Source: Pelagibacteraceae bacterium AG-349-E10 (GTDB lineage: Bacteria > Pseudomonadota > Alphaproteobacteria > HIMB59). From it: a DNA stretch of 37,824 bases. The notes below the pieces were generated by a model, which searched no databases, was not told where the DNA came from, and was given only the letters and a program-made list of their open reading frames with translations. Positions within the stretch are counted from its first letter, which is position 1; the number at the start of each line of letters is the position of its first letter. Shown piece by piece: positions 13,738-37,371 of the stretch. The position numbers and the translations under genes are program-made. The stretch is from NCBI GenBank assembly GCA_003281065.1, contig QCDA01000005.1, positions 1 to 37,824 of the forward strand, given 5' to 3'.

Positions 13738-13760
13738 TTTATCATATATTGATTGATAAA
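13738..13760. promoter_or_regulatory. Inverted repeat between cfa and nadE
   Basis: Arms TTTATCA (13738-13744) and TGATAAA (13754-13760) are exact reverse complements with a 9-base spacer. An overlapping 12-bp palindrome ATAAAATTTTAT lies at 13731-13742. They sit in the 125-base gap between divergent cfa and nadE, where an operator would be expected, but AT-rich palindromes are common by chance here. Confidence 0.25.
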
Positions 13761-13821
13761 ATGAATTAAAATATCAATTAAATAGTTGAACTTTTAATAT
13801 TAAGCTAACGTAGTACAAAAT

Positions 13822-14553: not shown

Positions 14554-14565
14554 ACTTTGTAAAAC

Positions 14566-15612: not shown

Positions 15613-15614
15613 AT

Positions 15615-20439: not shown

Positions 20440-20994
20440 ATGAGTAGAACTATTACAGAAAATCTCTTTGGCACACACTTCTTTTCCAAGTATTACCTAA
20501 CTATACTAGGAGTGATTTTACTGACTATATCTTCTAAAATTTCTATTCCCTTTTACCCTGTTCCAATGACATTACAAACTTTGGTGGTTTTCTTTATAGC
20601 TGCATCAATGGGCATGATTGGGTTTTATTCAACATTTATTTATGTGGTTTTAGGTGTGCTAGGACTACCTTTATTCGCTAATGGTGGAGGAATTGGCTAC
20701 ATTTTTTCTCCAACATTTGGTTTTTTATACGGAATGGTAATTTCTTCGTTCATGATTGCATATATTCTCAAATCTGAAGTGAACACAGGTTTGATCAAAT
20801 TATCGGCTACTATTCTTGCTGGTGCATTTGTAATATTTTTATGTGGTATTAGTCACCTTTCGTTTTTTGTAGGTATTGAACAAGCTATAAATCTTGGTTT
20901 ATTACCATTTTTGTATAGTGAATTCCTAAAGATTGTATTGGCTATAGCTATAATTTTTGGGTTGATTCAAAGAGTTAATCAAAAAAATTCATAA
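20440..20994 (+). CDS. bioY: Biotin transporter BioY
   Basis: BioY is the substrate-capture membrane subunit for biotin uptake, working alone or with an ECF ATPase module. The 184-residue protein has about six membrane segments. Signatures: KISIPFYPVPMTLQTLVVFF near residues 32-51 and GVLGLPLFANGGGIGYIFSPTFGFLYG. No ECF ATPase or bioM/N genes are in the window. Presence of a biotin importer suggests dependence on external biotin. The 3' end overlaps the convergent HDAC-family gene by 6 bases. Confidence 0.95.
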   Translation: MSRTITENLFGTHFFSKYYLTILGVILLTISSKISIPFYPVPMTLQTLVVFFIAASMGMIGFYSTFIYVVLGVLGLPLFANGGGIGYIFSPTFGFLYGMVISSFMIAYILKSEVNTGLIKLSATILAGAFVIFLCGISHLSFFVGIEQAINLGLLPFLYSEFLKIVLAIAIIFGLIQRVNQKNS

Positions 20995-21897
20995 ATAAGT
21001 TTTACTTACAGTTTCAAATATTGAGAAGTGCCGAGATGCCAATTCTTGTCTATTCTTGCTGTATCCTCCACCTATAACAGTACAAATAGGTATTTTTTTT
21101 TCTTTGAAATACTCACATACAATTTCATCTCTTTTTTTAATGCCATCGTCAGTAAGGTTTAAATTACCTAGATCATCGTTAGAGTGCACGTCAACTCCTG
21201 CATCATAAAAAACAATATCTGGCGTAAAATTAGACTCAATTTGATCAAGTGTTTTTGTGAGGATATTTATATATTTAACATCATTTACTTCATCATCTAT
21301 TGGTACGTCTAAATTGCTATTTTTTTTGTTAAATGGAAAATTATTTTTACAATGAATTGAACATGTAAAAATATTATCAATTTTTTCACAAATAGAAGCA
21401 GTTCCATCACCTTGATGAACATCTAAATCTAAAATTAAAATTTTTTTTACTTTTTTTTGATTAAGTAAAGCTATTGATGCATAGGCTAAGTCATTAAATA
21501 CACAAAAACCAGATCCACAATCTTTAAATGCATGATGAGTCCCGCCTGCCAAATGACATGCAACACCATTCTCTAATGCCAATTGAGAGGTTTGTAAAGT
21601 ACCTTGTATAGCTAAAAAAGACCTCCTAGCAAGTCTCTTACTCCAAGGAAGATTTATTTTTCTCTCATCAGCCCTAGAAAGACTGCCTTGTTTAACATTT
21701 AAAACATATTCACTTTTATGGACACATTGAACATCACTTATAGGTGCTTCTATACTTTTATGAATGATTAAATTTTTATAGATATCTGAGTCTTTGATGT
21801 AGTTATAAAGGTCAGAAAATTTTGTTCCAACAAATCTATGTCCATCTGGTAATGGAATGTCATAATTATGATTATAAACGACATTAAGCTTACGCAT
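20989..21897 (-). CDS. Histone deacetylase family hydrolase
   Basis: A 302-residue zinc-dependent deacetylase-fold enzyme. Motifs in order: LAGGTHHAF with the catalytic His pair, FCVFNDLAYASIALL, the metal-binding LDLDVHQGDGTASI, and YDAGVDVHSNDDLGNLNLTD with the second metal Asp. Bacterial members deacetylate small molecules such as acetylated amines or proteins; the substrate cannot be assigned. It follows the frameshifted NAD(P)-binding gene by 9 bases and converges with bioY. Confidence 0.92.
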   Translation of the reverse strand: MRKLNVVYNHNYDIPLPDGHRFVGTKFSDLYNYIKDSDIYKNLIIHKSIEAPISDVQCVHKSEYVLNVKQGSLSRADERKINLPWSKRLARRSFLAIQGTLQTSQLALENGVACHLAGGTHHAFKDCGSGFCVFNDLAYASIALLNQKKVKKILILDLDVHQGDGTASICEKIDNIFTCSIHCKNNFPFNKKNSNLDVPIDDEVNDVKYINILTKTLDQIESNFTPDIVFYDAGVDVHSNDDLGNLNLTDDGIKKRDEIVCEYFKEKKIPICTVIGGGYSKNRQELASRHFSIFETVSKTYL

Positions 21898-22598: not shown

Positions 22599-24101
22599 TT
22601 AATTTTTATTATATTTTTCTTTTAAAATATTCTTTTGGACTTTACCCATTATATTTTTTGGGAGTTCATCTAATACAAAATATTCTTTAGGAATTTTATA
22701 TCTAACTAAGTTTTTTTCTAAGTGGGATTTAATATTTTCTAATTTATTATCTTTTTGATACATGACTATCGCTGCTACAGGTATTTCACCCAAATCATTA
22801 TCAGGAATTCCAAAAACAGCTGACTCTATAACATTTTCATTTTCATTTATTACATCCTCTATTTCTTTAGGGTAAACATTATAACCACCACTTATAATTA
22901 AATCTTTATTTCTTCCAGATATATAGAGATAACCATCATCATCGAAATAACCAATATCTCCTGTAATAAAATATCCATCTTTTGTAAATGCTTCTTTGGT
23001 TTGATCTAATTTATTTAGATAGCCTTTAAACACATTAGGGCCTTTAATTTCTATCATTCCAATTTGATTTTTATTTAATACCTCAGATCCCTCTGTAACG
23101 CTTATTCTAATATTTATATCTTTTATTGGTTTTCCAACAGAGCCAGCTTTTCTAACGCCATCAAGAGGATTAGATGAATTCATATTTGTCTCTGTCATAC
23201 CGTAGCGCTCTAAAATGTGATGACCTGTAATATCATAAAAATTTTTATGTGTTTCTTTTAATAACGGAGCGCTACCAGAAATAAATAACCTCATATTCTT
23301 CGTATGCTTTCTATTTAATCTTTTATCTTTTAACAATCTTGTATAAAAAGTAGGTACTCCCATCATCAAGGTAGATTTATCAAAAGCCTGAAAAACATTA
23401 TCTAAATTGAAATTTTTAAGCAACCTTACAGTTGCTCCAGCCATCATTGTAGTGTTCATAGCCACAAACAATCCATGAGTATGATAAATTGGAAGAGAGT
23501 GGATCAAAGTATCATCATGGTTAATATTCCATAAATTAACTAATTGATTTGCATTAGAAACTAAATTCAGCTGTGTTAACATAGCTCCTTTAGGTTTGCC
23601 AGTTGTGCCTGAGGTATATAGAAGAGCTGCTAAATCATCATCTTTTCTAAAAGCTGGCTTAAAATAACTATCAAAATTTTTAAGGCCATCTGTAATCTCT
23701 CCCTCTCCATTCACGTTCATAGATAAAATTTTACATCCTATTTCATCACATATGGGCTTTAGTTTTTGAATTTCACTTTCTTCACAAATTAAAAAAGCTG
23801 GTTGTGCGTCTTTTACAAAGTAGTTAGTTTCAATTGGTGTATAATTTGAATTAAGAGGGAAATAAACGGCACCAGTCATTATAGAAGATAGGTATAAAGC
23901 AATGGTTTCTTTACATTTAGGAGCTTTTACAAGTATATGATCTCCAACTTTTAATCCGAACTTGATTAGTTTATGAGAGATTTTTGAAGCAATAGAGATA
24001 ATTTCCTCATAACTAAATGATTTACCATCATCAAGTAGTAAAAAAGTTCCTTTATTATCTAAATTTGGTTCAATTAGTTGTGAATAAAGAAAATTATTCA
24101 A
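22599..24101 (-). CDS. matB: Malonyl-CoA synthase (MatB-like acyl-CoA ligase)
   Basis: An adenylate-forming enzyme of 500 residues that would make malonyl-CoA from malonate, ATP and CoA. Core motifs: LLYTSGTTGKPKGAM (P-loop), LPIYHTHGLFVAMN, MMGVPTFYTRLL, RLFISGSAPLL, ERYGMTETNMN and GRNKDLIISGGYNVYPKEIE. The HTHGLFVA, MMGVPTFYTRLL and ERYGMTETNMN-x-SNP combination is characteristic of the malonyl-CoA synthase clade rather than general acyl-CoA ligases. The start is a TTG; an ATG 7 bases upstream is out of frame because of a TTTT run, and one T fewer would join it in frame. No Shine-Dalgarno sequence is visible. Confidence 0.85.
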   Translation of the reverse strand: MNNFLYSQLIEPNLDNKGTFLLLDDGKSFSYEEIISIASKISHKLIKFGLKVGDHILVKAPKCKETIALYLSSIMTGAVYFPLNSNYTPIETNYFVKDAQPAFLICEESEIQKLKPICDEIGCKILSMNVNGEGEITDGLKNFDSYFKPAFRKDDDLAALLYTSGTTGKPKGAMLTQLNLVSNANQLVNLWNINHDDTLIHSLPIYHTHGLFVAMNTTMMAGATVRLLKNFNLDNVFQAFDKSTLMMGVPTFYTRLLKDKRLNRKHTKNMRLFISGSAPLLKETHKNFYDITGHHILERYGMTETNMNSSNPLDGVRKAGSVGKPIKDINIRISVTEGSEVLNKNQIGMIEIKGPNVFKGYLNKLDQTKEAFTKDGYFITGDIGYFDDDGYLYISGRNKDLIISGGYNVYPKEIEDVINENENVIESAVFGIPDNDLGEIPVAAIVMYQKDNKLENIKSHLEKNLVRYKIPKEYFVLDELPKNIMGKVQKNILKEKYNKN

Positions 24102-24169: not shown

Positions 24170-25198
24170 TTAAGATCCAGATAGACCTTCTACTGATGTT
24201 GGTAACCACTTTTCCCAAGTAGATTTATTATTTGCTTTCCACTCAGCTACAACGTCATTTAGTTCTCCACCTTCACGAACCTTAACGAGCATTGCTGCTT
24301 GATCTGCATTTGATAAAGCCATTTTACCAAAAAATTCTAATGCAGCTTGGTTTTCAGGTTTTGCAAAAGTATCAGGATTACCGTAGTTCATTGGATAATC
24401 AACTGCCCAACCTGTTGCTGGCCAATAATCTGCACCACAAGTTTCCCAGTTATTAGCTTCTGTGAACGTATCACAAGTCTTATTTGGAGCTAATTTTACA
24501 CCGACTAATTCGTTAACACCAAAGAACCAATGCGGCTCCCAAAGGTACATTAAGAAAGGCTCGCCTCTATCGTACATACCTTGCGCTTCAGCAAGAGCAG
24601 CAGTTTCAGTTCCTAATTCATCAGCAACAAAGTCTAGACCCAACAGATCTAATCTTTTTTGATCATGACAGTTCCAACCAGCAACTGGACAACCAATTAA
24701 TCTACCTTTGTCACCACTTTCCATTGTAGCAAAATCAGATTTATATTTATTCAAATCAGCGAAACCAGAAAAGTCTGGGTTTGCATCAGCCCAATATTTT
24801 GGAACATAGTAATCTGACATGCCTGTAATTCCTACAGTTCCTAAAAGTTTGACGCTACCATCTCCAGAGTAAGTCATTTTAACTTCTCCACCATGAATTA
24901 AATCGCCATTTAACATAACCTCATCTGCTTCCGCATAACTAGGCCATGACTCACAAGCAAAATCAATATCACCTGCAGCAATAGCCTCCCAAAGACCAGT
25001 TCCTGAGGCAAATACTATTCTATCAATCTCATATCCTAGTTCGTCTTCAAGTATGCTTACAGCTACTTGGCACGAAATCTCTCCACCAGTCCAGTCAGCA
25101 ATAGCAGCAAGTAATTTTTCTGCACTTGCTTTACTGAATGTTGCAGTAAAAAGAATAGAGGATAGAATAAAAGTAATAATTGTTTTAGATATTCTCAT
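24170..25198 (-). CDS. Glycine betaine/proline-type ABC substrate-binding protein (OpuAC/ProX)
   Basis: A 342-residue periplasmic binding protein with a signal peptide (about 26 residues, ending SKASA). The mature part begins with LAAIADWTGGEISCQVAVSI, typical of the OpuAC family that binds quaternary ammonium or sulfonium compounds in an aromatic cage; several Trp/Tyr are well placed (ASGTGLWEAIAAGDIDFACESW, LWEPHWFF, WPATGWAVDYP). Three Cys pairs may form disulfides. It has a Shine-Dalgarno GGAGGG (25206-25211 on the minus strand) 7 bases upstream of ATG. It is separated by about 5 kb from the matching permease and ATPase, transcribed alone and ended by its own terminator, which would allow high expression. 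Confidence 0.9.
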   Translation of the reverse strand: MRISKTIITFILSSILFTATFSKASAEKLLAAIADWTGGEISCQVAVSILEDELGYEIDRIVFASGTGLWEAIAAGDIDFACESWPSYAEADEVMLNGDLIHGGEVKMTYSGDGSVKLLGTVGITGMSDYYVPKYWADANPDFSGFADLNKYKSDFATMESGDKGRLIGCPVAGWNCHDQKRLDLLGLDFVADELGTETAALAEAQGMYDRGEPFLMYLWEPHWFFGVNELVGVKLAPNKTCDTFTEANNWETCGADYWPATGWAVDYPMNYGNPDTFAKPENQAALEFFGKMALSNADQAAMLVKVREGGELNDVVAEWKANNKSTWEKWLPTSVEGLSGS

Positions 25199-25331
25199 AG
25201 ATTATCCCTCCCATTATTTGTTTATATTAGCAAAAAAAAGCCAAAGTACATATGCAATTTATTCATCAATCAGTATCTAAATACTATAAAATATGTTTTT
25301 TAATAACTAATTAAGTGTAATAGTATCAAAA

Positions 25332-26219
25332 ATGATGAAAACTAAAGTATTTCTAACATGTGCTGTTAATGGATCTGGTGACACTGCATCTAAACATCCT
25401 GATCTTCCAAAAACACCAAAACAAATAGCTAAATCTGCATTGGAGTCTGCCCAAGCCGGTGCCTCGATTGTTCATATTCATGTCAGAGAAGAAGATGGAA
25501 CACCTAGTCGAAAATTTGAATTTTATAAGGAGGTAGTTGAAATAATTAGATCAAGCGACACTGATGTAATTATTAATTTAACAACTGGTATGGGAGGTGA
25601 TTTAGATATAGGTGAAGGAGATAACCCAATGGATTTTGGTCCATATACTGATATGGCAAATATTATGGAGAGAATATCTCATGTAGAGGAATTACTGCCA
25701 GAAATATGTACACTTGATGCTGGAACTTTAAATTTTGGTGATAGTTCTGTGTTGGCAGTCAATACACCAAATGATTTAAGAAAAGCAGCAAAACGTTTAA
25801 AAGAAATTGGAGTTAAACCTGAAGTTGAAGCATTTGATTTAGGTAATATGTGGTTTGGAGCTCAGCTTTATGAAGAAGGACTACTAAGTGATCCACCTTT
25901 ATATCAAATGTGTTTAGGAATTCCTTGGGGAGCTCCAGCAAAAACTACAGCTATGATTGCAATGTTAGATGTCATGCCAAAAAATGCTATTTGGTCAGGG
26001 TTTGCAATTTCAAGAAATGAAATGCCCTTTGTTGCACAAACAGTTTTACTCGGAGGTAATCCCAGAGTTGGGCTTGAAGATAATTTATATTTATCAAAGG
26101 GAAAACTTGCAACTAATCCACAATTAGTTGAAAAGGCAATAAAAATAGTTCATGAGTTGGGCTCCTCTATTATGAGCCCAGAAGAGACCAGAGATTATTT
26201 AAAACTAAAAAAATCCTAA
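25332..26219 (+). CDS. Beta-keto acid cleavage enzyme (BKACE, DUF849)
   Basis: BKACE enzymes condense a beta-keto acid with acetyl-CoA and release acetoacetate plus a new CoA ester. The 295-residue protein has metal ligands His48 and His50 (IVHIHVREEDG) and Glu249 (GGNPRVGLEDN), with Asp250 following, as in the characterised Kce enzyme. The family is split by substrate: 3-keto-5-aminohexanoate, dehydrocarnitine and others. Proximity to a betaine-type importer makes 3-dehydrocarnitine a reasonable guess, but sequence alone does not establish it. It diverges from the binding protein gene across 133 bases and its end overlaps the SDR gene by 4 bases. Confidence 0.9.
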   Translation: MMKTKVFLTCAVNGSGDTASKHPDLPKTPKQIAKSALESAQAGASIVHIHVREEDGTPSRKFEFYKEVVEIIRSSDTDVIINLTTGMGGDLDIGEGDNPMDFGPYTDMANIMERISHVEELLPEICTLDAGTLNFGDSSVLAVNTPNDLRKAAKRLKEIGVKPEVEAFDLGNMWFGAQLYEEGLLSDPPLYQMCLGIPWGAPAKTTAMIAMLDVMPKNAIWSGFAISRNEMPFVAQTVLLGGNPRVGLEDNLYLSKGKLATNPQLVEKAIKIVHELGSSIMSPEETRDYLKLKKS

Positions 26220-27007
26220 TCCATTCTTTCAGTATTACCATCTATTGAAATTACTTGACCAGATACTCTAAGAGAGTCGTGAGAAATTAAAAAAGAACAC
26301 ATTTTTGCAATATCATCTTCATAAACCCATTGTTTTAAAGAACTCATAGAAACAAAATCTTTTTCAATTGATCTTACAGATTGATTTAACATTTTTGCTT
26401 TCGCTTTTATGACTCTCATCATTCTCGCACCTTTAACAGAACCTGGGCATATTGCATTGACTCGTATATTAAATTTACCTAATTCCATTGCTAAAGTTTT
26501 GGTAATACCAACTAAGGCCCATTTGCTTGCCGCATAGGGTGATCTATTAGGAAAACCATCGATACCAGCTGTAGAGGAAATATTAATTATTGATCCATGT
26601 TTAGATTTTTTAATCATGGGTATTGCATATTTCGTAAAATAAAAGTGACTATTTACATTTACTTGTAGAGTTTTTTCCCAATCTTCAGATTTAATTTTCT
26701 CTAAAGGAGATGTGGGTCCAGCTATACCAATGTTATTAATAAGTCCGTCTATTTTTTTTGTTTTATTTGATACTTCTTTATAAAATTTCTTTACCTCATC
26801 CTCTTTTGAAGCGTCGCATTCTGATATAAAGAGTTTCTTATTAAAGTATGGATTTTTTTTTAATTTATTAATATTTTTTTTATCAATATCACAAGTATAT
26901 ACAAAAGCACCTCGTGATAGTAATAATTTCACAGTAGCTAAACCTATCCCCGAAGCACCAGCAGATAAAATAATATTTTTATTTTTTAGGAAATTATTTT
27001 GCATCAT
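26216..27007 (-). CDS. Short-chain dehydrogenase/reductase (SDR)
   Basis: A classical SDR of about 263 residues: nucleotide-binding SAGASGIGLA (about 15-24), NNIGIAG, catalytic Ser in NISSTAG and YAASK, then CPGSVKGARMMRV. Asp in TCDIDKKN after strand 2 suggests NAD(H) preference. The frame is open 13 codons upstream but that part lies inside the preceding gene; the paired ATG codons at 27007/27004 fit the usual SDR start. It overlaps the GcvT/DmdA-like gene by 14 bases, so it is last in the operon running from the permease. The substrate is unknown. Confidence 0.88.
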   Translation of the reverse strand: MMQNNFLKNKNIILSAGASGIGLATVKLLLSRGAFVYTCDIDKKNINKLKKNPYFNKKLFISECDASKEDEVKKFYKEVSNKTKKIDGLINNIGIAGPTSPLEKIKSEDWEKTLQVNVNSHFYFTKYAIPMIKKSKHGSIINISSTAGIDGFPNRSPYAASKWALVGITKTLAMELGKFNIRVNAICPGSVKGARMMRVIKAKAKMLNQSVRSIEKDFVSMSSLKQWVYEDDIAKMCSFLISHDSLRVSGQVISIDGNTERMD

Positions 27008-28190
27008 AAACTGTATTATCAGGTTTGGTAGGAATTGTTCTATCAATACCCTTTACAATTCTTTTTTCTTTATCGTAAAATGGTAAATCTACAACGACTC
27101 CGATATGAGAGGAATTATCTGGGAGTAATATTTCAATCTCTTTATTCATATAATCATTTGGCTCATAAAATCTTACATAACCAATTCCTAGTTGGAGAGT
27201 TGGTGACGGTACACCTGCTGTAATATAACCGACTTCTTTATCATTAAGTTTTATTTTACTTCCAGCTTTAGGAACTGCTGTTTTACATGTTATTCCAAAT
27301 AAACATGTTCTTTTATCTTTTTTCATTAAAGCATCTTTACCGATAAAATCTTTATCCATATTCACAAAATACCCGAGGCCTGCTTCGAAAGGAGTAATTG
27401 TTGTATCAATGTCAGTTAAATTTCCAAAAATACCGCCCTCAATTCTTCTAATTGTCATAGCTCTTGAGGCAGAAAATTTCATTCCATATGGTTTACCACA
27501 TTCAATAAGATAGTCCCATAGAGCCAAATGGTCTGTATTAAATCCATCACAAAATATTTCAAACCCCAATTCATTTGTGAAACCTGTTCTCGAAACATAT
27601 AAAGTTTGCCCTCCTAAATCGAAAAAATTTGAGCTAAAATAAGGCATATTTTCATCAATCTTTCCATTTGAGGCTGACTTCATAATATCGATTGAGGCTG
27701 GACCTTGAATTTGAAGAACTCTAGATTTGGGGTCTTTTATTTCAATATCATAATTTGAACTATGCGCAATCAGCCAATCTTCAAATGGACCATCTGCTTG
27801 AACATACCAAAACTTTTCTTCATCAAATCTAAACAAAACTCCGTCCATGAAAATTCCACCTTTTGGTGTACATGCAAGTGCATAATAGCCTCTGCCAATT
27901 TTTGTTTTTGAAATTTCTCTTGTGAGCACTTTATTCAAAAAAGAAACTGAGTCTTTTCCTGATATTTCAATTGGTTTTTCTGGAACATCAAACAAAAGTG
28001 CTTTTTGTCTTAACAGCCAATATTTTTCTTGTGGATCTTCATCAATTTTCATCGGAAAGTATCTACCTGCATAAACACCTCTAACCATATTCGAAGTATT
28101 GGTACGCTGAATAAATGGAGACTCTTCAAATCTACGAGCACTAATTTGGATAGTTTGTTTTAAATCAGCTTCTTCTTGTAAATTTCCCAT
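26994..28190 (-). CDS. GcvT/DmdA-fold aminomethyl- or methyltransferase
   Basis: A 398-residue folate-binding enzyme of the glycine cleavage T-protein family (GCV_T domain about 70-290, GCV_T_C about 300-385). Blocks seen: YWLLRQKALLFDVPEKPIEI, LQIQGPASIDIM, YVSRTGFTNELGFEIFC and RRIEGGIFGN. The N-terminus (ISARRFEESPF) and YWLL block resemble the DMSP demethylase DmdA more than true GcvT, but other parts differ from DmdA, so I do not assign dmdA. Family members move a methyl or aminomethyl group to tetrahydrofolate. The ATG directly follows the molybdoenzyme stop, so the two are co-translated and probably act on the same compound. Confidence 0.82.
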   Translation of the reverse strand: MGNLQEEADLKQTIQISARRFEESPFIQRTNTSNMVRGVYAGRYFPMKIDEDPQEKYWLLRQKALLFDVPEKPIEISGKDSVSFLNKVLTREISKTKIGRGYYALACTPKGGIFMDGVLFRFDEEKFWYVQADGPFEDWLIAHSSNYDIEIKDPKSRVLQIQGPASIDIMKSASNGKIDENMPYFSSNFFDLGGQTLYVSRTGFTNELGFEIFCDGFNTDHLALWDYLIECGKPYGMKFSASRAMTIRRIEGGIFGNLTDIDTTITPFEAGLGYFVNMDKDFIGKDALMKKDKRTCLFGITCKTAVPKAGSKIKLNDKEVGYITAGVPSPTLQLGIGYVRFYEPNDYMNKEIEILLPDNSSHIGVVVDLPFYDKEKRIVKGIDRTIPTKPDNTVYDAK

Positions 28191-30542
28191 TTATTTATCA
28201 ACAGATTTATTTGAGTTATATTTATTATCTCGAATAATAACAGGAGGATCAAATGCTGTCACAGGTGAAACATTATCTGTAACTAATTCTACTTCAATTA
28301 GACATGAGTGTGCTATAGGACCCTGACCTAATTTTGAAGTTCCTTTGTCTTTTGTAAGGACATTAGGATTACCATGTTTGCAGATGGTTTTAAAATTTTT
28401 AGTATTCTCCGGATCATACCAAGCGCCCGTGCTAATTTGCACGACTCCAGGGCGGATATTTTCATTGATATTTACTCCAGCTAGACATGCACCTCTGTCA
28501 TTAAAAAGTTTTACTATATCTCCATTATTTATTCCACGGCTATGCGCATCAACACTATTCATTTCAATTGGTTCACGATCTTTAATTTTAAAAGATTTGC
28601 TGTAACCTCCATGATCCATTTGACTATGTAATTTATTTTTTGGCTGATTGGAGATTAGATGCAAAGGATAATTATTATTTTTACTTCCAAGCCACTCACA
28701 AGGTTCTAACCATGTTGGATGACCAGGACAATCGTCATAATTAAAACTATCAACTGTTTTGGAATATATTTCTATTTTTCCACTGGGAGTTGAGAGTGGG
28801 TATTTTATAGGGTCTTTCACAAAATCTTTTAACATTATTGTATACTCTTTTGGTGGTGGAACTTTAAACCATCCTATTTTTCTAAACTCCTCGTAACTCG
28901 GAAAATCAATATTTTTCAATGATTTTGATTTAACAGATGTTTCTTGATAAATCCATCTCTGCCAGTCTTCTTCACTTCTTCCTTCAGTAAAAAGATTTTC
29001 AACATCCATTTTTTTGGCAATTCCTTTAAAAATATCAAAATCACTTTTAGCTTCCTTAAAAGGTTCTACTAATTTTGACATTGATATAACGTAAGGATCT
29101 CTTGGGGTGAGCATTATATCTTGTCTTTCAAGTGGAGTGGTACAAGGTAAGATAATATCTGAATATTTGGCTAACGAATTCCAGCACCATTCATTACAAA
29201 TAATTGTTTCAGGTTTTTGCCATGCAAGTAATAGTTTGTTAATATCTTGATGATGATGAAAAGGGTTACCCCCTGCCCAATAAATTAATTTAATATCAGG
29301 ATATACATATTCTTGACCATCAAAATCAAAAGTATCACCTGGATTCAATAATAAATCACTTATCCTTGCAACGGGAATAAAATTATCAATCTTATTATCA
29401 GATTGTGGAAAAGCAGCACCAGGAATAATTGAAAACTGGCCACCTATATGATTAGTTGCACTATAGCCAAAACCAAAACCACCACCTGGTAATCCTATTT
29501 GACCCAACATAGATGCTAGCATAATTGCAGCCCAAAAAGGTTGCTCACCATGATCTTGACGAGTTAAAGACCAACTAACAGATATCATAGTGCGCTTTGA
29601 AGACATATCTCTTGCTAGAGATATAATTTCATCTGTTGAAATTTCACTTATTTTTGATGCCCAATTAGCATCTTTTACTACCCCATCTAAATCTCCCAAT
29701 AGATATGGTAAAAAAATTTCAAAACCCTCTGTGTATTTTTTAATAAATTTTTCATCATACAAATTTTCTTTATAAAGTGTGTGTGCTAAGCCAAGCATAA
29801 TAGCTACATCGGTATTAGGTCTTAAAGGAAGCCATTTTCCTTTAACTTCACCTAGTAAGTCACTTTTGAGTGGACTAAAATTTATAAATTTTATGCCAGC
29901 TTTAGCTGATCGAATTAACTTTTCTTTTTGATTATGACTTCCAGTACCACCTTGAGCTATTTGACCGTTTTTTATTGGTACCCCTCCAAAACATACAAAT
30001 AATTTTGTATTTTCTTCGATTGAGTCCCAACTAGTGCAGGTATCAAGATAAGCTCGATAACTTCCAAGTATATGGGGAACCATTGCCTCTGCTGCTGCAA
30101 AGCTATAAGTAAACTTAGATCTTGTGTAACCACCAATACAATTTAAAAAGCGATGAAGTTGGCTTTGAGCATGATGGAATCTTCCAGCACTAGCCCAACC
30201 ATAAGATCCACCAAATATTGAAGAATTACCAAAATTATTTTTTACTCTGTTTAATTCCTTAGCCACAATACTTTCAGCTTTGTCCCAAGATACAGCTACA
30301 AAAGGTTCAATTCCTCTTAAATTATTATTTGTTCCTGGTCCATTATCTATCCAACTTTTTCTTATCATAGGCTTATCAATTCGCGTTTGATTATCGTGAA
30401 TGTCTATAATGCCGGGGCCTATTGGTGATGGATCTTTATCGTTTTCCCATCCAATTAACTCTTTAACTCTCCCATTCTGTACTTTTGCTCTATAAGTTCC
30501 CCAATGTGAACTAGTTAAGGGAAGGTCTTTCTTAAAATCCAT
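28191..30542 (-). CDS. Cytoplasmic DMSO reductase-family molybdoenzyme (BisC/DorA-like)
   Basis: A bis-MGD molybdenum oxidoreductase of 783 residues. It aligns closely with periplasmic DMSO reductase from SHWGTYRAKVQNGR at its N-terminus, but there is no Tat leader, as in cytoplasmic biotin sulfoxide reductase BisC. Ser147 (FTYSFAAAEA) is the expected molybdenum ligand; Tyr114 and Trp116 (GGSYGW) match the DMSO reductase active site, and Tyr114 is the residue known to favour S-oxides over trimethylamine N-oxide. No iron-sulfur Cys motif is at the N-terminus. Later blocks include QIGLPGGGFGFGYS, YWAGGNPFHHHQD, LPCTTPLERQDI and STPSGKIEIYSK. It overlaps the permease stop by 1 base. Confidence 0.92.
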   Translation of the reverse strand: MDFKKDLPLTSSHWGTYRAKVQNGRVKELIGWENDKDPSPIGPGIIDIHDNQTRIDKPMIRKSWIDNGPGTNNNLRGIEPFVAVSWDKAESIVAKELNRVKNNFGNSSIFGGSYGWASAGRFHHAQSQLHRFLNCIGGYTRSKFTYSFAAAEAMVPHILGSYRAYLDTCTSWDSIEENTKLFVCFGGVPIKNGQIAQGGTGSHNQKEKLIRSAKAGIKFINFSPLKSDLLGEVKGKWLPLRPNTDVAIMLGLAHTLYKENLYDEKFIKKYTEGFEIFLPYLLGDLDGVVKDANWASKISEISTDEIISLARDMSSKRTMISVSWSLTRQDHGEQPFWAAIMLASMLGQIGLPGGGFGFGYSATNHIGGQFSIIPGAAFPQSDNKIDNFIPVARISDLLLNPGDTFDFDGQEYVYPDIKLIYWAGGNPFHHHQDINKLLLAWQKPETIICNEWCWNSLAKYSDIILPCTTPLERQDIMLTPRDPYVISMSKLVEPFKEAKSDFDIFKGIAKKMDVENLFTEGRSEEDWQRWIYQETSVKSKSLKNIDFPSYEEFRKIGWFKVPPPKEYTIMLKDFVKDPIKYPLSTPSGKIEIYSKTVDSFNYDDCPGHPTWLEPCEWLGSKNNNYPLHLISNQPKNKLHSQMDHGGYSKSFKIKDREPIEMNSVDAHSRGINNGDIVKLFNDRGACLAGVNINENIRPGVVQISTGAWYDPENTKNFKTICKHGNPNVLTKDKGTSKLGQGPIAHSCLIEVELVTDNVSPVTAFDPPVIIRDNKYNSNKSVDK

Positions 30543-32665
30543 TAGGATGTATCTAATCCAAGGGCTTGTCTTTGTTTTTTAGTCCAGGCGTGAGTTATCC
30601 TATCGATGATAATAGCAAGAAGAACAATAGCTAAACCGGCTGATAGACCTCTTCCTGTATCTGATCTTTGAAGTGCATTAAATACTTGAAGTCCTAGACC
30701 TTTTCCACCAATCAAAGGTGTAACAATTTGCATTGCAAAAGCCATAATTACAGTTTGATTAAATCCCATAACGAGACTGGGTACAGCTAATGGAAATTTT
30801 ACTTTATTTAAAGTTTGAATTCCTGTTCCTCCAAAAGATTTAGATACCTCTGAATAGCTTCCTGAAACTTGTGACAAACCAAGAGCTGTTAATCTTATTA
30901 TTGGTGGCACAGAATATATAACAGTTGCAATAACTGCAGATACTATATTTCCTCCAAAAAACATTAAAACAGGAATTAAATAACAAAAATAAGGTAAAGT
31001 TTGCATTGCATCTAAAACAACATTTTGGATATCTCTATACCATTTATTGTAAGAAGCTATTACTCCAAGTGGCACTCCTATTACGAAACAAATTAAAACT
31101 GAAACTAGTACTGAAGATAGCGTAATCATTGAATGCACCCACATACCCGTCGCTCCAATGAAGGCTAATAATATAGCAGTAATTGTGGCAAACTTTATTC
31201 CTACAGTCACATATCCAATAAGAATAAAAACAATCATTGTGTACCACCAAGGTATTTGAGTTAGAAATAAATTTAGTGGGTTTAGCAAATATAAGTAAAC
31301 AAAATACTTCATACCTTTTGCAAAGGAAATAAAGCCAGGGTCAAGAGTCATTGCCTTAACAGCATCTTCTATTGGTTTTTGAATATTAATTGCCCAAGTT
31401 TCTGGAAAAGTCCCTATGCTATAAAAGTATGCATCAAAAATATAAATAAAGATGAAAATTAATAATGATGAAAATAAAAAATATCGCTGATTTATAAAAT
31501 TTTTAACTGAACCATTATAGGATTTATTAAATACAGAAATTATGCTAGCCATTAAATTAGCAAAAATGTTAACAGTTTTTGTGAAAAATAAGTCTATTAT
31601 CTTTACAGTTAATCTTATTGGTAATTCAACTAAATTTGCTAATGGGTTTCTATGTAAATTTTGCGGTAATAAGTAAAATTTTTTTACATCATCAGGTAAG
31701 GTTTCTTTTTCTTTACTAATAGCGGTACTTATTCTATCAAACATTATTGCCATAAATAAAATACATAAGCCCCCTTCCATTGCCCAACCTACATCTAATT
31801 TTCTAATTGCTTGCCATACTTGACCGCCTAAACCTTCAGCTCCAATGAAAGTTGCAAGAACAACTAAAGCTAATGCCATCATAATCGTTTGATTAACTCC
31901 CATCATGATACTTGGTAAAGCCATTGGAATTTTTATTTTAAGTAAAAGTTGAAATTTATTAGATCCAAAAGACTCAGCTGACTCAATTGTTTCTTTTGAT
32001 ACTTGTCTAATACCTAAATTAGTTAATCTAATAATTGGAGGCATAGCATAAATTAATGTAGCAAGTATCGCTGGAGCTCCACCAATTCCAAAAAAGAACA
32101 TTGCAGGGAATAAATATACAAAGGCAGGCATTACTTGCATGGTATCTAAAATTGGTTTTAGAAAATTTTCAAATCTATCACTCTGTGAACTAAGTATTCC
32201 TAAAATTACACCAAAAATTACAGATAAAATTACCGACAAACCCATTAATGCTAGTGTTTGCATTGATACTTCCCACATGTCTACAGCTCCCCAAAAATAA
32301 ACTGTAAACATACAAAATAGAGCTAGTTTAATACCACCGTACGCTAATGCTGGAAGAGTCATCAAAGACATAATTAAAATCCATGGAGACTCAACAAAGA
32401 AATTTTCCAATGCCATGTAACCAGCTTGTAAAAAGGATGCAAATAATCTAGTTATCCATCTATAGTTATCTTTTAAATAATCCTCTCCTGCATTTATCCA
32501 TGCGGTAAATTTAAATTCATCAGTAATAGATTTAGGAAATACAGTAGGATCCTCATTAATAATCGAAAGGTAATACGCTACTGCCCCAATTATAAAAATG
32601 CTTACATAGAGAATTATATTTTTATTTGAGGTATTTTTGGTATTTATATTTTGGTCTACAGACAT
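30542..32665 (-). CDS. Fused double ProW/OpuAB-type betaine ABC permease
   Basis: A 707-residue membrane protein made of two ProW-like permease domains joined end to end, about residues 60-340 and 400-695. Each half has a membrane bundle and its own EAA-type loop: ETIESAESFGSNKFQLLLKI in the first, then YSEVSKSFGGTGIQTLNKV in the second, each followed by a P-x-A-[LV]-PS-[IL]-[MV]-MG block. It would act as the whole membrane channel of a betaine, choline or DMSP-type importer with the divergent ATPase and the binding protein. It is the first gene of the operon with the molybdoenzyme, GcvT/DmdA-like and SDR genes. Confidence 0.92.
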   Translation of the reverse strand: MSVDQNINTKNTSNKNIILYVSIFIIGAVAYYLSIINEDPTVFPKSITDEFKFTAWINAGEDYLKDNYRWITRLFASFLQAGYMALENFFVESPWILIMSLMTLPALAYGGIKLALFCMFTVYFWGAVDMWEVSMQTLALMGLSVILSVIFGVILGILSSQSDRFENFLKPILDTMQVMPAFVYLFPAMFFFGIGGAPAILATLIYAMPPIIRLTNLGIRQVSKETIESAESFGSNKFQLLLKIKIPMALPSIMMGVNQTIMMALALVVLATFIGAEGLGGQVWQAIRKLDVGWAMEGGLCILFMAIMFDRISTAISKEKETLPDDVKKFYLLPQNLHRNPLANLVELPIRLTVKIIDLFFTKTVNIFANLMASIISVFNKSYNGSVKNFINQRYFLFSSLLIFIFIYIFDAYFYSIGTFPETWAINIQKPIEDAVKAMTLDPGFISFAKGMKYFVYLYLLNPLNLFLTQIPWWYTMIVFILIGYVTVGIKFATITAILLAFIGATGMWVHSMITLSSVLVSVLICFVIGVPLGVIASYNKWYRDIQNVVLDAMQTLPYFCYLIPVLMFFGGNIVSAVIATVIYSVPPIIRLTALGLSQVSGSYSEVSKSFGGTGIQTLNKVKFPLAVPSLVMGFNQTVIMAFAMQIVTPLIGGKGLGLQVFNALQRSDTGRGLSAGLAIVLLAIIIDRITHAWTKKQRQALGLDTS

Positions 32666-32736
32666 ATATAGTTACATTTATCAATTAATATAAGAATTTA
32701 TAAAAATAATTTTATTTTAATAGTATTAATTCACAA

Positions 32737-32742
32737 TATAAT
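32737..32742 (+). promoter_or_regulatory. Possible -10 element for the proV-type gene
   Basis: TATAAT occurs 19 bases upstream of the ATPase start, in the 96-base divergent gap that must hold promoters for both the ATPase and the permease operon. No good -35 is present at 16-18 bases, and the DNA is about 85% A/T, so support is weak. Confidence 0.25.
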
Positions 32743-32761
32743 ACCAATATACCTTAAAAAT

Positions 32762-33796
32762 ATGGATAAAATTATTTGCTCAAATATATGGAAAATTTTT
32801 GGCAATGATGAAAAAAGAATTTTAGATAATTTAGATCCAAATTTAAGTAGAGACGAGGTCCAAGAGAAAACTGGACATGTGGTAGCTGTTAAAGATGTCA
32901 GCTTTTCCATTCAAAAAGGTGAGACATTTGTTGTAATGGGATTATCAGGAAGTGGAAAATCCACATTAGTAAGATGTCTAACTAGATTAATTGAACCTAC
33001 GTCAGGATCAGTAATTATTGATGATACTGACATTACAAAAATAAGTAGAAATAGTCTTCTTGATCTTAGAAGAAATAAAATGAGTATGGTATTTCAACAC
33101 TTTGGACTTTTTCCACATCGAACAGTCCTTGAAAATATATCTTATGGTTTAGAAATAAGGGGAGAAAAAAAACAAGAAAGATTAGATAAGGCTACAGAGT
33201 CTTTAAATCTTGTTGGTTTAAAAGGTTGGCATAATAATTATCCAAGAGAGTTATCAGGTGGAATGCAACAAAGAGTTGGTTTAGCACGTGCGATGGCTGT
33301 TGAGCCAGAAATCTTAATATTTGATGAGCCATTTTCTGCTTTAGACCCTTTAATTAGACGAGAAATGCAAGATGAACTATTAGACATTCAAAAAAAATTG
33401 CAACGCACCATGGTATTTATTACTCATGATTTTTTGGAGGCAATAAAAATGGGCGATCATATTGCAATCATGAAAGATGGAGAGATTTCTCAAGTTGGAA
33501 CACCTGAAGAAATTGTAGCAAATCCAGTTGATAAATATGTTAAAGATTTTTGTGAAGATGTTCCAAAATATAAGGTATTAAGTGCAGGAAAAGTTATGCG
33601 TAAAGAGTGTTCTGATGAGTCTAAAAAATTATTTTCAGATAAGACAAAATGCATAAATGAAAATGCTAAAATTGAAACATTAATTGACCAGATATGTGAG
33701 GATGATACGGCCTACCCTATAATAAATGCACAATCTGGAGAGTTAGTTGGAGAAATTGATCGAACTATAGTTATGAAGTCTATGAAATCTAAATGA
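32762..33796 (+). CDS. Glycine betaine/proline-type ABC ATPase (ProV/OpuAA)
   Basis: The 344-residue ATPase has Walker A GLSGSGKST (60-68), signature ELSGGMQQRVGLARA, Walker B ILIFDEPFSALDPLIR and the H-loop FITHDFLEA. The N-terminal insert between strand 1 and Walker A (DNLDPNLSRDEVQEKTGHVVAV) is the ProV/OpuAA form. The C-terminal extension (about 270-344) looks like a shortened CBS region, which senses ionic strength in related systems. It diverges from the fused permease and is its likely partner. Confidence 0.93.
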   Translation: MDKIICSNIWKIFGNDEKRILDNLDPNLSRDEVQEKTGHVVAVKDVSFSIQKGETFVVMGLSGSGKSTLVRCLTRLIEPTSGSVIIDDTDITKISRNSLLDLRRNKMSMVFQHFGLFPHRTVLENISYGLEIRGEKKQERLDKATESLNLVGLKGWHNNYPRELSGGMQQRVGLARAMAVEPEILIFDEPFSALDPLIRREMQDELLDIQKKLQRTMVFITHDFLEAIKMGDHIAIMKDGEISQVGTPEEIVANPVDKYVKDFCEDVPKYKVLSAGKVMRKECSDESKKLFSDKTKCINENAKIETLIDQICEDDTAYPIINAQSGELVGEIDRTIVMKSMKSK

Positions 33797-33807
33797 TCTT
33801 ATCATTT
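33791..33807. terminator. Weak bidirectional hairpin between convergent genes
   Basis: AAATGAT (33791-33797) and ATCATTT (33801-33807) form a 7-bp stem with loop CTT, spanning the ends of the ProV-type and EamA genes. The stem is short and AT-rich and no solid T-run follows, so termination would be inefficient. Confidence 0.35.
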
Positions 33808-34717
33808 AGTTTGGTTTATTAATTTTCTTATTTTTATCTCTCCAAATAATAATCATTCCAGCGAAAACTATTAATAAAACTCCAGGGAAAAGTTGATCAA
33901 AAGGCGCCTCACCAAAAAATATCCAAGCTAGAATAAAAGATGAGGGTATTGCTAAATATTCAAAAACTGCGATTTTACTAGCTGCAATTAACCTATAAGA
34001 GTAAATAAATAGAATTGCAGCAGTTCCTCCAAAAATACCAATTAATGATAAAATTAAAAAGTCAGTATTACTCTCGATATATGTATGACCAGTTGTAAAA
34101 AAAATAAAAATTAACGAACCAAGAAAAGATGAAAACAAAGAATAAAACTGAATTTTTCCTGTAGTAAAATTGTCTGGTATAAATTTTAGCACTATCACTT
34201 GGACTGCCCATAAGAAAGCAACAAGTAATGGTAAAATAGAATAATAGGAAAAAATACTACTATTAGGTTTCATAATCATTACAACTCCAATAAAACCAAT
34301 TATAACAGCTGACCATCTATACATACCCACTCTATCTCCCAAAAAGAAGATTGATAAAATTACTATGAAAAATGTAGAGGAAAAAGTTAGTGTAGATGCT
34401 GTAGCAAATTCCATATTATTTATAGCAATATAATACAAGATATTAATAGCCAAAAAACAAGAACCTCTGATAAAACAAAATAAAATAAATTTTTTATTTA
34501 AATTTTTAAAAAGATCAGAGCTTTCTTTATTATAAATTAGTAAAAGTATTAAGGGTATTATTGCAAAAGTATTTCTAAAAAGAGCTAATTGAATTGTTGA
34601 GTACTCACCTCCTAAATATTTTACAATCAATCCATGTATATCTATGAATATAACACCAATAACCATTGCAGAGATTGCAAGAAATGTATTTTTTTGATTA
34701 TTAATAAAATTAATCAT
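33806..34717 (-). CDS. EamA/DMT family transporter
   Basis: A 303-residue inner-membrane protein with about ten membrane segments in two EamA repeats (about 10-140 and 155-290). The first repeat ends with the typical FSSTFFIVILSIFFLGDRVG-like stretch, the second with VFEYLAIPSSFILAWIFFGE. Members export amino acids, metabolites or drugs; the substrate is not readable. The conserved Glu after FFG or FLG is Asp in the first half and Glu in the second. It converges with the ProV-type gene and diverges from the alcohol dehydrogenase gene across 41 bases. Confidence 0.9.
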   Translation of the reverse strand: MINFINNQKNTFLAISAMVIGVIFIDIHGLIVKYLGGEYSTIQLALFRNTFAIIPLILLLIYNKESSDLFKNLNKKFILFCFIRGSCFLAINILYYIAINNMEFATASTLTFSSTFFIVILSIFFLGDRVGMYRWSAVIIGFIGVVMIMKPNSSIFSYYSILPLLVAFLWAVQVIVLKFIPDNFTTGKIQFYSLFSSFLGSLIFIFFTTGHTYIESNTDFLILSLIGIFGGTAAILFIYSYRLIAASKIAVFEYLAIPSSFILAWIFFGEAPFDQLFPGVLLIVFAGMIIIWRDKNKKINKPN

Positions 34718-34758: not shown

Positions 34759-35949
34759 ATGAAAAACTTTAAACTAAACGAAAATGATATTCTCTCTAAT
34801 CAAGACTGGACGTTTCCAACAACCACATATTACGGACCAGGAAGATTTAATGAAATTGCAAAATTTTGTGAAGAATTTGATATTAAAAATCCTCTTATTG
34901 TAACAGATAGTGGCAGCAAGGATCTTCCTTTTATTAAAAAGTTAATAGCATTATTGTCTAAAAATAGTATTAAATCAGATTTATTTTATGATATATCTCC
35001 TAACCCACGAGATGATGAGATATCCAAAGGATGTGACCAATTTAAAAATGGAAATCACGACTCAATCATAGCTATTGGAGGTGGTAGTGCAATGGATGGT
35101 GGAAAGTCCATATGTTTAACTGTTAATAGTGAAACTCCATTATGGGATTTTGAGTTTGAACAACCTGTTCCAAAGATAACAAAAGAAAATGCGTTTCCAA
35201 AAATAATAACTATCCCAACAACTGCAGGAACTGGGGCAGAAACAGAAATAACAGCAATGGTTACACATTTAGAAAAAGGAATGAAATTTTGCATCTGGCA
35301 TCCAGATGTAAGACCTATATTCACACTAGTAGATCCAGAGTTAACTTTAGAATTACCTCCAAAATTAACAGCGTGGACAGGTGTCGATGCTCTTGTACAT
35401 AGTATCGAGGGATACTGTGTGCCGGGTTTTCATCCACTTTGTGATGGAGCTGCTTTAGAAAGTCTTAATTTAATTTCTAAATCTCTTGTTTTAGCAATAG
35501 AGGAACCAAATAATTTGTTAGCAAGGGGTGCGATGATTATAGGCTCATATTTGGGAGGAATATCCTTTTTAAAGGGATTAGGTAATGTTCATTCAATATC
35601 CCACATGGTTGGAGCAGAATTTAATACTCATCATGGTTTAACGAATGCTATTGTTTTACCACCTGTTCTTCATTTCAATTTACCAGGTATGGACGAGAAA
35701 GTTCAAAGAATGTCAGAAGCCATGCAATTTAAAAATCATACAGTAAATGAATTTACTCAAAATATCGAATTGTTACTTGATAGATTAAATATTCCTAAAA
35801 GTTTAAGTGAAATAGATGTTCCTGAAGATTGCGCTGAAAGAATTGCGAAAAAAGCAATGCAAGATCAAGCCTATGCAACAAATCCAAAAGAAGCCTCATT
35901 GTTGCAAATGAAAGAAATTGTTACTCAAAGTATAAAACAAGCTCGCTAA
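34759..35949 (+). CDS. Iron-containing alcohol dehydrogenase
   Basis: A 396-residue group III alcohol dehydrogenase. The NAD-binding GGGSAMDGGKSI and TIPTTAGTGAE motifs are followed by the four metal ligands Asp210, His214, His278 and His292, with the same spacing as in lactaldehyde reductase FucO (D-x3-H and H-x13-H). The substrate is open: family members oxidise or reduce simple alcohols, 3-hydroxypropionate or other hydroxy acids. It is 6 bases upstream of the amidase gene, suggesting one operon with the amidase and the following EamA gene. Confidence 0.93.
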   Translation: MKNFKLNENDILSNQDWTFPTTTYYGPGRFNEIAKFCEEFDIKNPLIVTDSGSKDLPFIKKLIALLSKNSIKSDLFYDISPNPRDDEISKGCDQFKNGNHDSIIAIGGGSAMDGGKSICLTVNSETPLWDFEFEQPVPKITKENAFPKIITIPTTAGTGAETEITAMVTHLEKGMKFCIWHPDVRPIFTLVDPELTLELPPKLTAWTGVDALVHSIEGYCVPGFHPLCDGAALESLNLISKSLVLAIEEPNNLLARGAMIIGSYLGGISFLKGLGNVHSISHMVGAEFNTHHGLTNAIVLPPVLHFNLPGMDEKVQRMSEAMQFKNHTVNEFTQNIELLLDRLNIPKSLSEIDVPEDCAERIAKKAMQDQAYATNPKEASLLQMKEIVTQSIKQAR

Positions 35950-35955
35950 GCCTCT

Positions 35956-37371
35956 ATGCTTGAGGATCAATCTGTTGAAATAATAATACACAGCATTAAT
36001 CAGCGACAAATATCTATCAAAGAGGTAATGGAATACTATTTGGATAGGATTGAAAAATTTAATCCAGATTTAAATGCAATAGTGCTTCTTAAGGATAGAA
36101 AAGATCTTATAAAAGAGGCTATTAATAAAGATAATTCAAATCAATTTGATAATACTTTAAATGGAATTCCCATAGCTATTAAAGATTTAAGTGATGTAGT
36201 TGGCATTAAAACAACATATGGTTATCCTGGAACAAAAGATTATTTTCCCAAAAAAAATTCATTATTTGTAGAACGTCTAATCAAAAGCGGAGTTATTATA
36301 ATTGGAAAAACTAATACAGCAGAATTAGGTGTTGGTGGACATACAATAAACAGATTGTTTGGCCCAACTTCTAATTATTATGATAATACAAAATCTGCAG
36401 CAGGATCAAGTGGAGGAGCCAGCACTGCTGTAGCAGCAGGATTGATACCATTTGCAGACGGCACTGATCAAATGGGGTCATGCAGAGGACCAGCAGCATA
36501 TGCAAATATTTATGGATACAGACCTACACCTGGCTTAATTTCAGAAGATAGAGGGAACCAATTATCAAAAATTCCCATACTCACAACACCTGGTTGTTTA
36601 GCAAAAACACCAAGTGATATGGCATTTTTATTAGATGAAATTATTGGAAGTGATACGAGGGATAACTACTCTTTTGATTTAAAAAAACTTTTTAAAAATC
36701 AAAAAATAAAAGATGAAGATTTAACCAATATCAAAATAGGTTGGTTATCTAATATGAATAACAATTATAAAATTGAAACAAAAATTTTAGATATGTGTGA
36801 GTCTCAACTTAAAAAATTAGAAAACTTTGATGTAAAAATTGAAAGATTAAAGCCAGATTTTGATAATGAAGCTCTATGGAATAGCTGGATTACGTTTAGA
36901 TCCAAAAGTATTTACCAAGATACTTTAGCAATGAACATAAAAGATATTAATACAATGACTTACCAAGCTATATGGGAGTACAATCAAGGAAAAAATATAA
37001 AAGATGAAGACTTAGATAGTGCTTATAAACAAAAAAAAAGGTGTGCAGAACAAATTGAAAATATTTTTAAAAATTTTGATTTTCTAGCTTTACCCTCTGC
37101 ACAACTATTTCCGTTTGATAAAAATCAACAGTTTCCTGAAAAAATAAATTCTTTTAAGTTAGATACTTACCACCGTTGGTTAGAAATTTTTATATTATCT
37201 AGTCTTCTTGAATTACCGACATTTACTATCCCTGTCGGATTTGATGAACTTGGTATGCCAATGGGTATGCAGATAATTGGAAAAAGGAAAAGTGATTTAC
37301 AAGTATTTGCTTTTGCAAAAAAATATGAGGAAATATTTAACTTTAGTAAGTTTAAACCTCTGTTAGATTAA
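35956..37371 (+). CDS. Amidase signature family hydrolase
   Basis: A 471-residue amidase with the Ser-cisSer-Lys triad at exact family spacing: Lys76 (AIKDLSDVVG), Ser151 (AAGSSGGAS) and Ser175. The strand around the nucleophile reads GTDQMGSCRGPAAYANIYGY, instead of the usual GTDTGGSIRIPA, so the nucleophile Ser is kept but its pocket is altered. It is not obviously the GatA subunit of the tRNA amidotransferase, since gatB and gatC are absent and the pocket sequence differs. Probable role is hydrolysis of a small amide; the substrate is unknown. Confidence 0.9.
   Translation: MLEDQSVEIIIHSINQRQISIKEVMEYYLDRIEKFNPDLNAIVLLKDRKDLIKEAINKDNSNQFDNTLNGIPIAIKDLSDVVGIKTTYGYPGTKDYFPKKNSLFVERLIKSGVIIIGKTNTAELGVGGHTINRLFGPTSNYYDNTKSAAGSSGGASTAVAAGLIPFADGTDQMGSCRGPAAYANIYGYRPTPGLISEDRGNQLSKIPILTTPGCLAKTPSDMAFLLDEIIGSDTRDNYSFDLKKLFKNQKIKDEDLTNIKIGWLSNMNNNYKIETKILDMCESQLKKLENFDVKIERLKPDFDNEALWNSWITFRSKSIYQDTLAMNIKDINTMTYQAIWEYNQGKNIKDEDLDSAYKQKKRCAEQIENIFKNFDFLALPSAQLFPFDKNQQFPEKINSFKLDTYHRWLEIFILSSLLELPTFTIPVGFDELGMPMGMQIIGKRKSDLQVFAFAKKYEEIFNFSKFKPLLD

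Follow-up and report, generated by a model that had tools for sequence, protein, structure and literature searches.

Why should the genes of an osmolyte importer be locked to those of a DMSO-reductase-family enzyme and a GcvT-fold protein, and which compound do the three handle together? The question is raised by a locus at positions 24170 to 33796 of a 37,824-nucleotide stretch (the window; contig QCDA01000005.1, here C5, of assembly GCA_003281065.1) from Pelagibacteraceae bacterium AG-349-E10, whose genome assembly is 0.9 Mb in size and 68% complete. A preliminary description, made from the sequence alone, proposed that an oxidised methylated osmolyte is imported, reduced in the cytoplasm and demethylated. 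Comparison with related genomes reveals a conserved core of five genes, namely a divergent ATPase and a row of permease, DMSO-reductase-family enzyme, GcvT-fold protein and substrate-binding protein (SBP). This core may be an importer-plus-demethylase for an osmolyte that is oxidised, methylated and carboxylate-bearing, with dimethylsulfoxonium propionate (DMSOP) as the strongest candidate; a probability of roughly 0.38 is given to this reading, and carnitine-type substrates are possible. The core genes are as follows.

32762..33796, + strand: OpuA/ProV-type ATPase (ProV/ChoV-type), divergent (TIGR01186, 369.8 bits, cut-off 326.6)
30542..32665, − strand: fused double OpuA/ChoW-type permease (TIGR03416, 425.8 bits, cut-off 363)
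28191..30542, − strand: DMSO-reductase-family (BisC-like) molybdoenzyme (TIGR00509, 937.9 bits)
26994..28190, − strand: GcvT-fold protein of 398 residues, candidate folate-dependent demethylase (PF01571, 152.6 bits)
24170..25198, − strand: OpuAC-type SBP (PF04069, 116.6 bits, threshold 21.2; solved relatives TmoX 4xz6, DmpX 7yle and OpuAC)

Permease, ATPase and SBP all score above their thresholds, as expected of an OpuA/ProU-type ATP-binding cassette (ABC) importer. The families named in the preliminary description were borne out by the open reading frames (ORFs) and by profile searches, and so were its junctions: one base (30542) is common to the permease and reductase ORFs, reductase and GcvT genes meet with zero gap (28191/28190), and a gene for a short-chain dehydrogenase/reductase (SDR) overlaps the GcvT gene by 14 bases when it is read from an ATG at 27007, the likely start, rather than from the mechanically assigned TTG at 27046.

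Thirty-five loci were collected from the contigs of related genomes with GcvT peptide patterns of the window, a search that distant relatives may escape. Permease and reductase genes, and likewise reductase and GcvT genes, are same-strand neighbours in 34 of them, the sole exception being L033, whose contig begins within the GcvT gene. The divergent ATPase adjoins the permease in 31/35; the contigs of the other four (L002, L030, L033 and L036) begin in, after or just before the permease. The SDR gene lies beside the GcvT gene in 28 of the 35; of the four-gene order first proposed the permease-reductase-GcvT part stands, and the SDR is not supported as core. In seven loci the SBP gene follows the GcvT gene immediately; these (L027, L029, L030, L031, L032, L034 and L035) encode proteins 58-83% identical to those of the window in the simpler order permease-reductase-GcvT-SBP. 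The 16S rRNA of four of these second-lineage genomes (L027, L031, L034 and L035) is 81-82% identical to that of the window's genus, which is less than the 86.7% of G079 from the sister family, and the cassette therefore crosses lineages. The tie between the importer and the two enzymes is thus kept beyond close relatives. Within the window's genus the reductase was found at at least 76% identity in 33 of 52 genomes, and relatives at 47-50% identity occur in 9 of 110 sister-family genomes.

The association exceeds what chance would give. Forty stretches around other alphaproteobacterial BisC-family genes (36 class matches at 48-59% identity and four sister-family matches, several stretches ending at contig ends) served as a control: at E 1e-6 none of the 40 matched the GcvT fold or an OpuAC SBP, and generic ATPases gave weak matches. 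The gene context of the window was thus not seen in the 36 stretches around homologues from elsewhere in the class. Conversely, no match to the window reductase was found in 14 stretches around other GcvT genes (35-51% identical), several of which end at contig ends. Window-type GcvT was found at E 1e-75 in one of 398 genomes of a phylum sample, the source genome itself, and relatives at E 1e-45 in 26 of 385 genomes of a class sample. The viral contigs searched held no relative of the reductase. In one of the 14 stretches, L209, the GcvT gene does have an OpuA importer next to it: at 3500-9496 (G177) an ATPase, permease and SBP (60%, 39% and 30% identical) adjoin a 42%-identical GcvT gene, without a reductase. 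This set may be related to the cassette and represent a simpler form.

The reductase matches TIGR00509 over its full length, with the next model at 724 bits; its score is below the curated cut-off of 1017.55 and for this reason it is named BisC-like only. Alignment places equivalents of Tyr114, Trp116 and Ser147 (Rhodobacter numbering) in the window reductase, four orthologues and E. coli BisC, and a gap at the Tyr114 column in E. coli TorA. We take the first two to be active-site residues and Ser147 the molybdenum ligand of Rhodobacter DMSO reductase. Tyr114 suggests an enzyme of the S-oxide type; a TorA-like trimethylamine N-oxide (TMAO) reductase is made less likely by this residue and by the SBP pocket described below. 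The protein starts some ten residues ahead of the fold, as its orthologues do, and no signal peptide is visible by eye (no signal predictor was applied). It is thus probably cytoplasmic, like the signal-less BisC, in keeping with the location first proposed. The window enzyme shares domains and key residues with BisC and the Rhodobacter-type DMSO reductases and is set apart from them by its gene neighbourhood, which links it with a GcvT-fold protein and an importer of osmolytes. A 50%-identical BisC-like gene of the sister family (L115, G067, 5020-16222) lies in a different catabolic cluster which, by reading of its ORFs, holds amidinotransferase-, racemase-, ornithine-cyclodeaminase- and ammonia-lyase-like genes and a polar-amino-acid-type ABC importer; the first ORF of this cluster, the one scanned, had no NCBIfam match at E 1e-10.

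The other enzyme, described at first as GcvT/DmdA-like, has the GcvT fold and is not DmdA. It scores 158.2 bits against the DmdA model NF009133, far under the cut-off of 410, and 164.9 bits against the glycine-cleavage model NF001567 (cut-off 300); its best NCBIfam match, at 183.2 bits, is to the C-terminal part only of the TMAO demethylase (Tdm) model NF053776 (763 positions, cut-off 1100). Its AlphaFold2 model (pLDDT 73) adopts the fold of T-protein, to which it aligns at Z 33.5; DmdA (3tfh) follows at 32.6, and DMGDH is also matched at Z 32-33. Two trees of 42 rows each were built, in which long branches leave the deep joins unsure. X_G495 (51% identical, with an in-frame stop) and the duplicates T_G111chk and X_G177 were left out, as was Y_G073_411 from the second. 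The window protein falls in a separate clade of 19 rows (support 100/99; DmdA side 99/97 and 99/95), which includes the stand-alone GcvT-like protein of a TMAO cassette and lies apart from DmdA and Tdm/GcvT. Identity with DmdA, Tdm or the glycine-cleavage T-protein is ruled out by these profile scores and the tree. The G495 homologue, at 2571-3725 of L204 near the contig start, is possibly a pseudogene or an assembly error.

At the column of E. coli Asp97, which we take to be catalytic in E. coli GcvT and for which a D97N structure exists among the fold matches, all seven cassette GcvT rows have Met and all 18 DmdA-side rows have Asn. Asp is present in Tdm (3/3), in E. coli GcvT and in the DmmD candidate. 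Because the catalytic Asp of methylene-transferring relatives is missing, this single residue argues for transfer of a methyl rather than a methylene group by the window protein. In the stand-alone GcvT-like protein encoded next to Tdm the Asp is likewise missing, with Ile or Met in its place (L219, 9460-10629; L168, 11232-12401). DmmD, described in the accessible part of PMC5520151, was considered and rejected: its candidate, a GcvT-fold ORF of G468 that has a DmmA-like gene some 2 kb away and to which we give the name by inference, is only 27% identical to the window protein, is closer to Tdm and retains the Asp.

What, then, is imported? The nearest solved folds to the SBP model are TmoX with TMAO, DmpX with dimethylsulfoniopropionate (DMSP) and OpuAC; phmmer gave no match to DmpX (7yle) at E 1. 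The accessible parts of the structural papers name Glu131 and Phe220 in the TMAO-binding pocket of TmoX (PMC8918994) and a four-Trp cage with Tyr200 in DmpX (PMC10030565). Compared with these residues, the window SBP keeps four Trp (W36, W85, W175 and W220) and adds Tyr218, which occupies the DmpX Tyr200 column where TmoX has Phe220. The pocket would fit a methylated onium compound, as was first suggested for this importer.

The window holds a third importer-plus-folate-enzyme set of its genus. In the source genome a true DmdA (483 bits, cut-off 410) shares its gene row with an OpuA importer, and the SBP of this importer matches DmpX-DMSP (7yle) at 1e-74. In the relative G150 a TmoX-like SBP (4.6e-65 to 4xz6), ATPase, fused permease and Tdm (1160 bits, cut-off 1100) form one row, which also holds a 389-residue GcvT-like protein and an ORF that reads as flavin-monooxygenase-like; in the source genome the contig with the corresponding row breaks off within Tdm. 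These two cassettes appear already to serve DMSP and TMAO. The window cassette resembles DmpXWV with DmdA in having an OpuA-type importer in a row with a GcvT-fold methyl-accepting enzyme, a residue other than Asp at the GcvT catalytic position and a Tyr in the SBP cage. It differs in the molybdoenzyme placed between permease and GcvT, and its SBP and GcvT are not orthologues of DmpX and DmdA. Like TmoXWV with Tdm it combines, in a single cassette, a fused double permease and ATPase with an SBP and a folate-domain enzyme, and the stand-alone GcvT-like gene of the TMAO cassette is the nearest paralogue of the window GcvT; the window cassette lacks the Tdm N-terminal domain and the Glu and Phe reported for the TMAO pocket, and has an S-oxide-type reductase. 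On contig C1 of the source genome, near DmdA and the DmpX-like SBP, there is also a 2-trimethylaminoethylphosphonate-dioxygenase-like gene (L169, 3087-4208; 332.7 bits, cut-off 400).

Several observations were counted in favour of DMSOP: the core order conserved in 34/35 loci and two lineages, the match of DMSP and TMAO to the two parallel cassettes, the S-oxide-type residues of the reductase, the missing GcvT Asp and the SBP pocket. That DmdA demethylation of DMSOP is posed as a future priority in the available part of PMC10686828 was counted too. In the proposed mechanism the OpuA-type importer would bring a zwitterion, most likely DMSOP, into the cytoplasm, where the GcvT-fold protein would move one S-methyl group to tetrahydrofolate by DmdA-like chemistry and the molybdoenzyme would take off the oxygen. 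The favoured order is demethylation first, which would convert the sulfoxonium to 3-methylsulfinylpropionate; this would then be reduced to methylmercaptopropionate and enter the DMSP demethylation route. It is favoured because DmdA is present, and reduction of DMSOP to DMSP alone would leave a second demethylase without clear purpose. The substrate left for the reductase would then be an ordinary sulfoxide, as is usual for the DMSO-reductase/BisC family. A dedicated lyase-free route in this complete form, with its own ABC import, folate-dependent demethylation first by a new GcvT-fold enzyme and cytoplasmic reduction to methylmercaptopropionate, is unlikely on present evidence.

Two further genes lie between the GcvT and SBP genes of the window.

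26216..27046, − strand: SDR oxidoreductase, accessory (PF13561/PF00106)
25332..26219, + strand: BKACE, probably a dehydrocarnitine-type cleavage enzyme, accessory (PF05853, 298.6 bits, gathering score 24.8)

BKACE, on the opposite strand, converges on the SDR with a 4-base overlap. Five of the 35 cassette loci (L027, L029, L030, L034 and L035) have neither an SDR nor a BKACE match within the stretch. BKACE is missing also from L019 and L032, whose stretches end early, and the SDR follows the SBP in L031 and L032. In both L170 and L171 a 318-residue ORF stands between SDR and BKACE; that of L170 is carnitine-dehydrogenase-like (343 bits, below the cut-off of 414) and L171 matches the same model. 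In L031 a carnitine-dehydrogenase-like gene abuts BKACE and is followed by a 155-residue ORF matching the C-terminal part of the carnitine 3-dehydrogenase model. BKACE, a carnitine-dehydrogenase-like gene and an SDR are grouped together in L253 and L254, and in L252 the first two are about 7 kb apart. These last loci belong to the second lineage, where BKACE and the carnitine-dehydrogenase-like gene are on a different contig from the cassette in G542 and G543 and the SDR accompanies them in two of three genomes (G542, G543 and G545). SDR and BKACE had been taken as parts of the cassette; their absence from five loci and their place elsewhere in G542, G543 and G545 led us to reject them as core and to regard them as accessory. 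Two observations weigh against this rejection: in G545 (L035 and L254) the group of three shares a contig with the cassette and is separated from the SBP, by coordinates, by about 15 kb, and at 8561-10476 of L207 (G322) a 42%-identical SDR is directly upstream, on the same strand, of a 43%-identical GcvT gene, so that the SDR-GcvT link may extend beyond the window's genus. On account of the carnitine-dehydrogenase-like neighbours across loci, BKACE and SDR are most likely genes of carnitine-type metabolism that in the window's genus have their place within the island. That module is separable from the core, and in the source genome the carnitine-dehydrogenase-like gene (355.7 bits, cut-off 414) lies apart on contig C19, adjoining a gamma-butyrobetaine-dioxygenase-like gene.

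These same neighbours favour a rival in which the importer takes up trimethylammonium acids of the carnitine type (carnitine, gamma-butyrobetaine or betaine), SDR and BKACE break them down, and the reductase and GcvT-fold protein have a separate, perhaps repair-like task, for instance the reduction of free methionine or biotin sulfoxide. The pairing of BKACE with the dehydrogenase in L170, L031, L253 and L254, the arrangement in G545 and the two genes on C19 all speak for it, as does the distribution of BKACE in the genus, where the 34 positive genomes of 52 are the 33 with the cassette and G148 (in which a contig end truncates BKACE); for this last co-occurrence physical linkage could be explanation enough. 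It is harder to reconcile with the five loci lacking SDR and BKACE, with the separate contigs of BKACE and cassette GcvT in G542 and G543, and with the cassette-positive genomes G155 and G156 (completeness 90% or more), which have no carnitine-dehydrogenase-like match at E 1e-60. The reductase and GcvT genes are moreover locked between permease and SBP in both lineages, a position needless for a repair enzyme. We regard this rival as rather unlikely. Carnitine import was considered as the role of a second OpuA importer in L035; since its SBP shares 50% identity with the DmpX-like SBP, it was not used as evidence.

Two other schemes keep importer and enzymes together, and both are judged distinctly improbable, to a similar degree. 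The molybdoenzyme could reduce an N-oxide such as TMAO to the amine, from which the GcvT-fold protein would take a one-carbon unit. TmoX is the nearest solved binding protein, the nearest GcvT paralogue adjoins Tdm and the best NCBIfam match of the window GcvT is part of TMAO demethylase, all of which agree with this. Opposed to it are the TmoX-like/Tdm cassette that the genus already has, the loss from the window SBP of the reported TmoX Glu131 and Phe220, the DMSO reductase/BisC tyrosine missing from TorA and the absence of the Asp of formaldehyde-handling GcvT domains. Alternatively, the same genes could work in reverse order, DMSOP being reduced to DMSP in the cytoplasm and DMSP then demethylated by the GcvT-fold protein. 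The architecture of the locus supports this as well as it does the favoured order; a second DMSP demethylase would, however, be redundant beside the true DmdA and DmpX-like importer of the genome, and the window GcvT is far from DmdA by sequence and tree.

The preference for DMSOP, with demethylation first, has to be set against a number of contrary points. The SBP model is modest (pLDDT 73) and poor in parts of the pocket, and the protein shares about 23% identity with DmpX-like and TmoX-like SBPs alike, its nearest relative being the L209 SBP (30%). The column of TmoX Glu131, which is uncertain by one residue, holds Ser128 beside Asp129, and both residues are conserved in the seven aligned cassette SBPs. 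In E. coli ProX, too, the discriminating column of the pocket is occupied by Tyr, so that this residue argues against TMAO without favouring sulfur over betaines. At 47% identity, the closest GcvT paralogue belongs to the TMAO cassette, which makes a nitrogen compound possible, and the BKACE and SDR neighbours hint at carnitine-type compounds in the same island. We know of no BisC-family enzyme that acts on sulfoxoniums, and no electron donor for the putative reductase was found.

No description of the combination of importer, DMSO reductase and GcvT was found in the open-licence literature, whose limited coverage is not proof of absence, and this agrees with the initial claim. In the same literature nothing joined Pelagibacter, DMSO reductase and GcvT, and the wording 'DMSOP reduct' did not occur in papers on DMSOP and reductases. 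Among the matches listed, none of those on DMSOP and DmdA had the wording 'DMSOP demethylation', none on DMSO reductase named HIMB59 and none on aminomethyltransferase and molybdopterin included homarine. A word search of the main text of an AEGEAN-169/HIMB59 paper (PMC10308909) gave no DMSO, TMAO, carnitine or glycine betaine. GcvT-like genes of SAR11, one of them beside OpuA genes, have been described in PMC3160333, the accessible part of which does not mention DMSO reductase. Bacterial use of DMSOP is described in the available part of PMC10686828 as proceeding via DMSP lyases to DMSO and acrylate, and the gene oxidising DMSP to DMSOP is given as unknown in that of PMC13360808. Against this background the cassette is a concrete few-gene candidate, in SAR11-like bacteria, for a route from DMSOP or another oxidised methylated osmolyte. 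If the lyase-free route were true, the sulfur of DMSOP would pass to methanethiol rather than DMSO in two ocean lineages of Alphaproteobacteria. The question of substrate is testable with a handful of purified proteins.

The flanks of the cassette hold four further genes.

33806..34717, − strand: EamA-family transporter, neighbour in both lineages (PF00892)
34759..35949, + strand: iron-containing alcohol dehydrogenase, neighbour in both lineages (PF00465/PF25137)
35956..37371, + strand: amidase, neighbour in both lineages (NF005686, 459.6 bits, below the cut-off of 465)
22599..24101, − strand: malonyl-CoA synthase-like enzyme, downstream of the SBP (NF005702, 649.2 bits, cut-off 558)

The first three lie upstream of the cassette in both lineages. 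An EamA match of more than 50% identity adjoins the ATPase in 30 of the 35 loci, and the alcohol dehydrogenase and amidase are matched in 27 and 25 respectively. The malonyl-CoA synthase-like gene is confined to the locus type of the window's genus, with no match in L027, L029-L032, L034 or L035. Downstream of it, at 20989-21897, is an ORF of 302 residues which had no NCBIfam match at E 1e-10 and may encode a histone-deacetylase/acetylpolyamine-type hydrolase.

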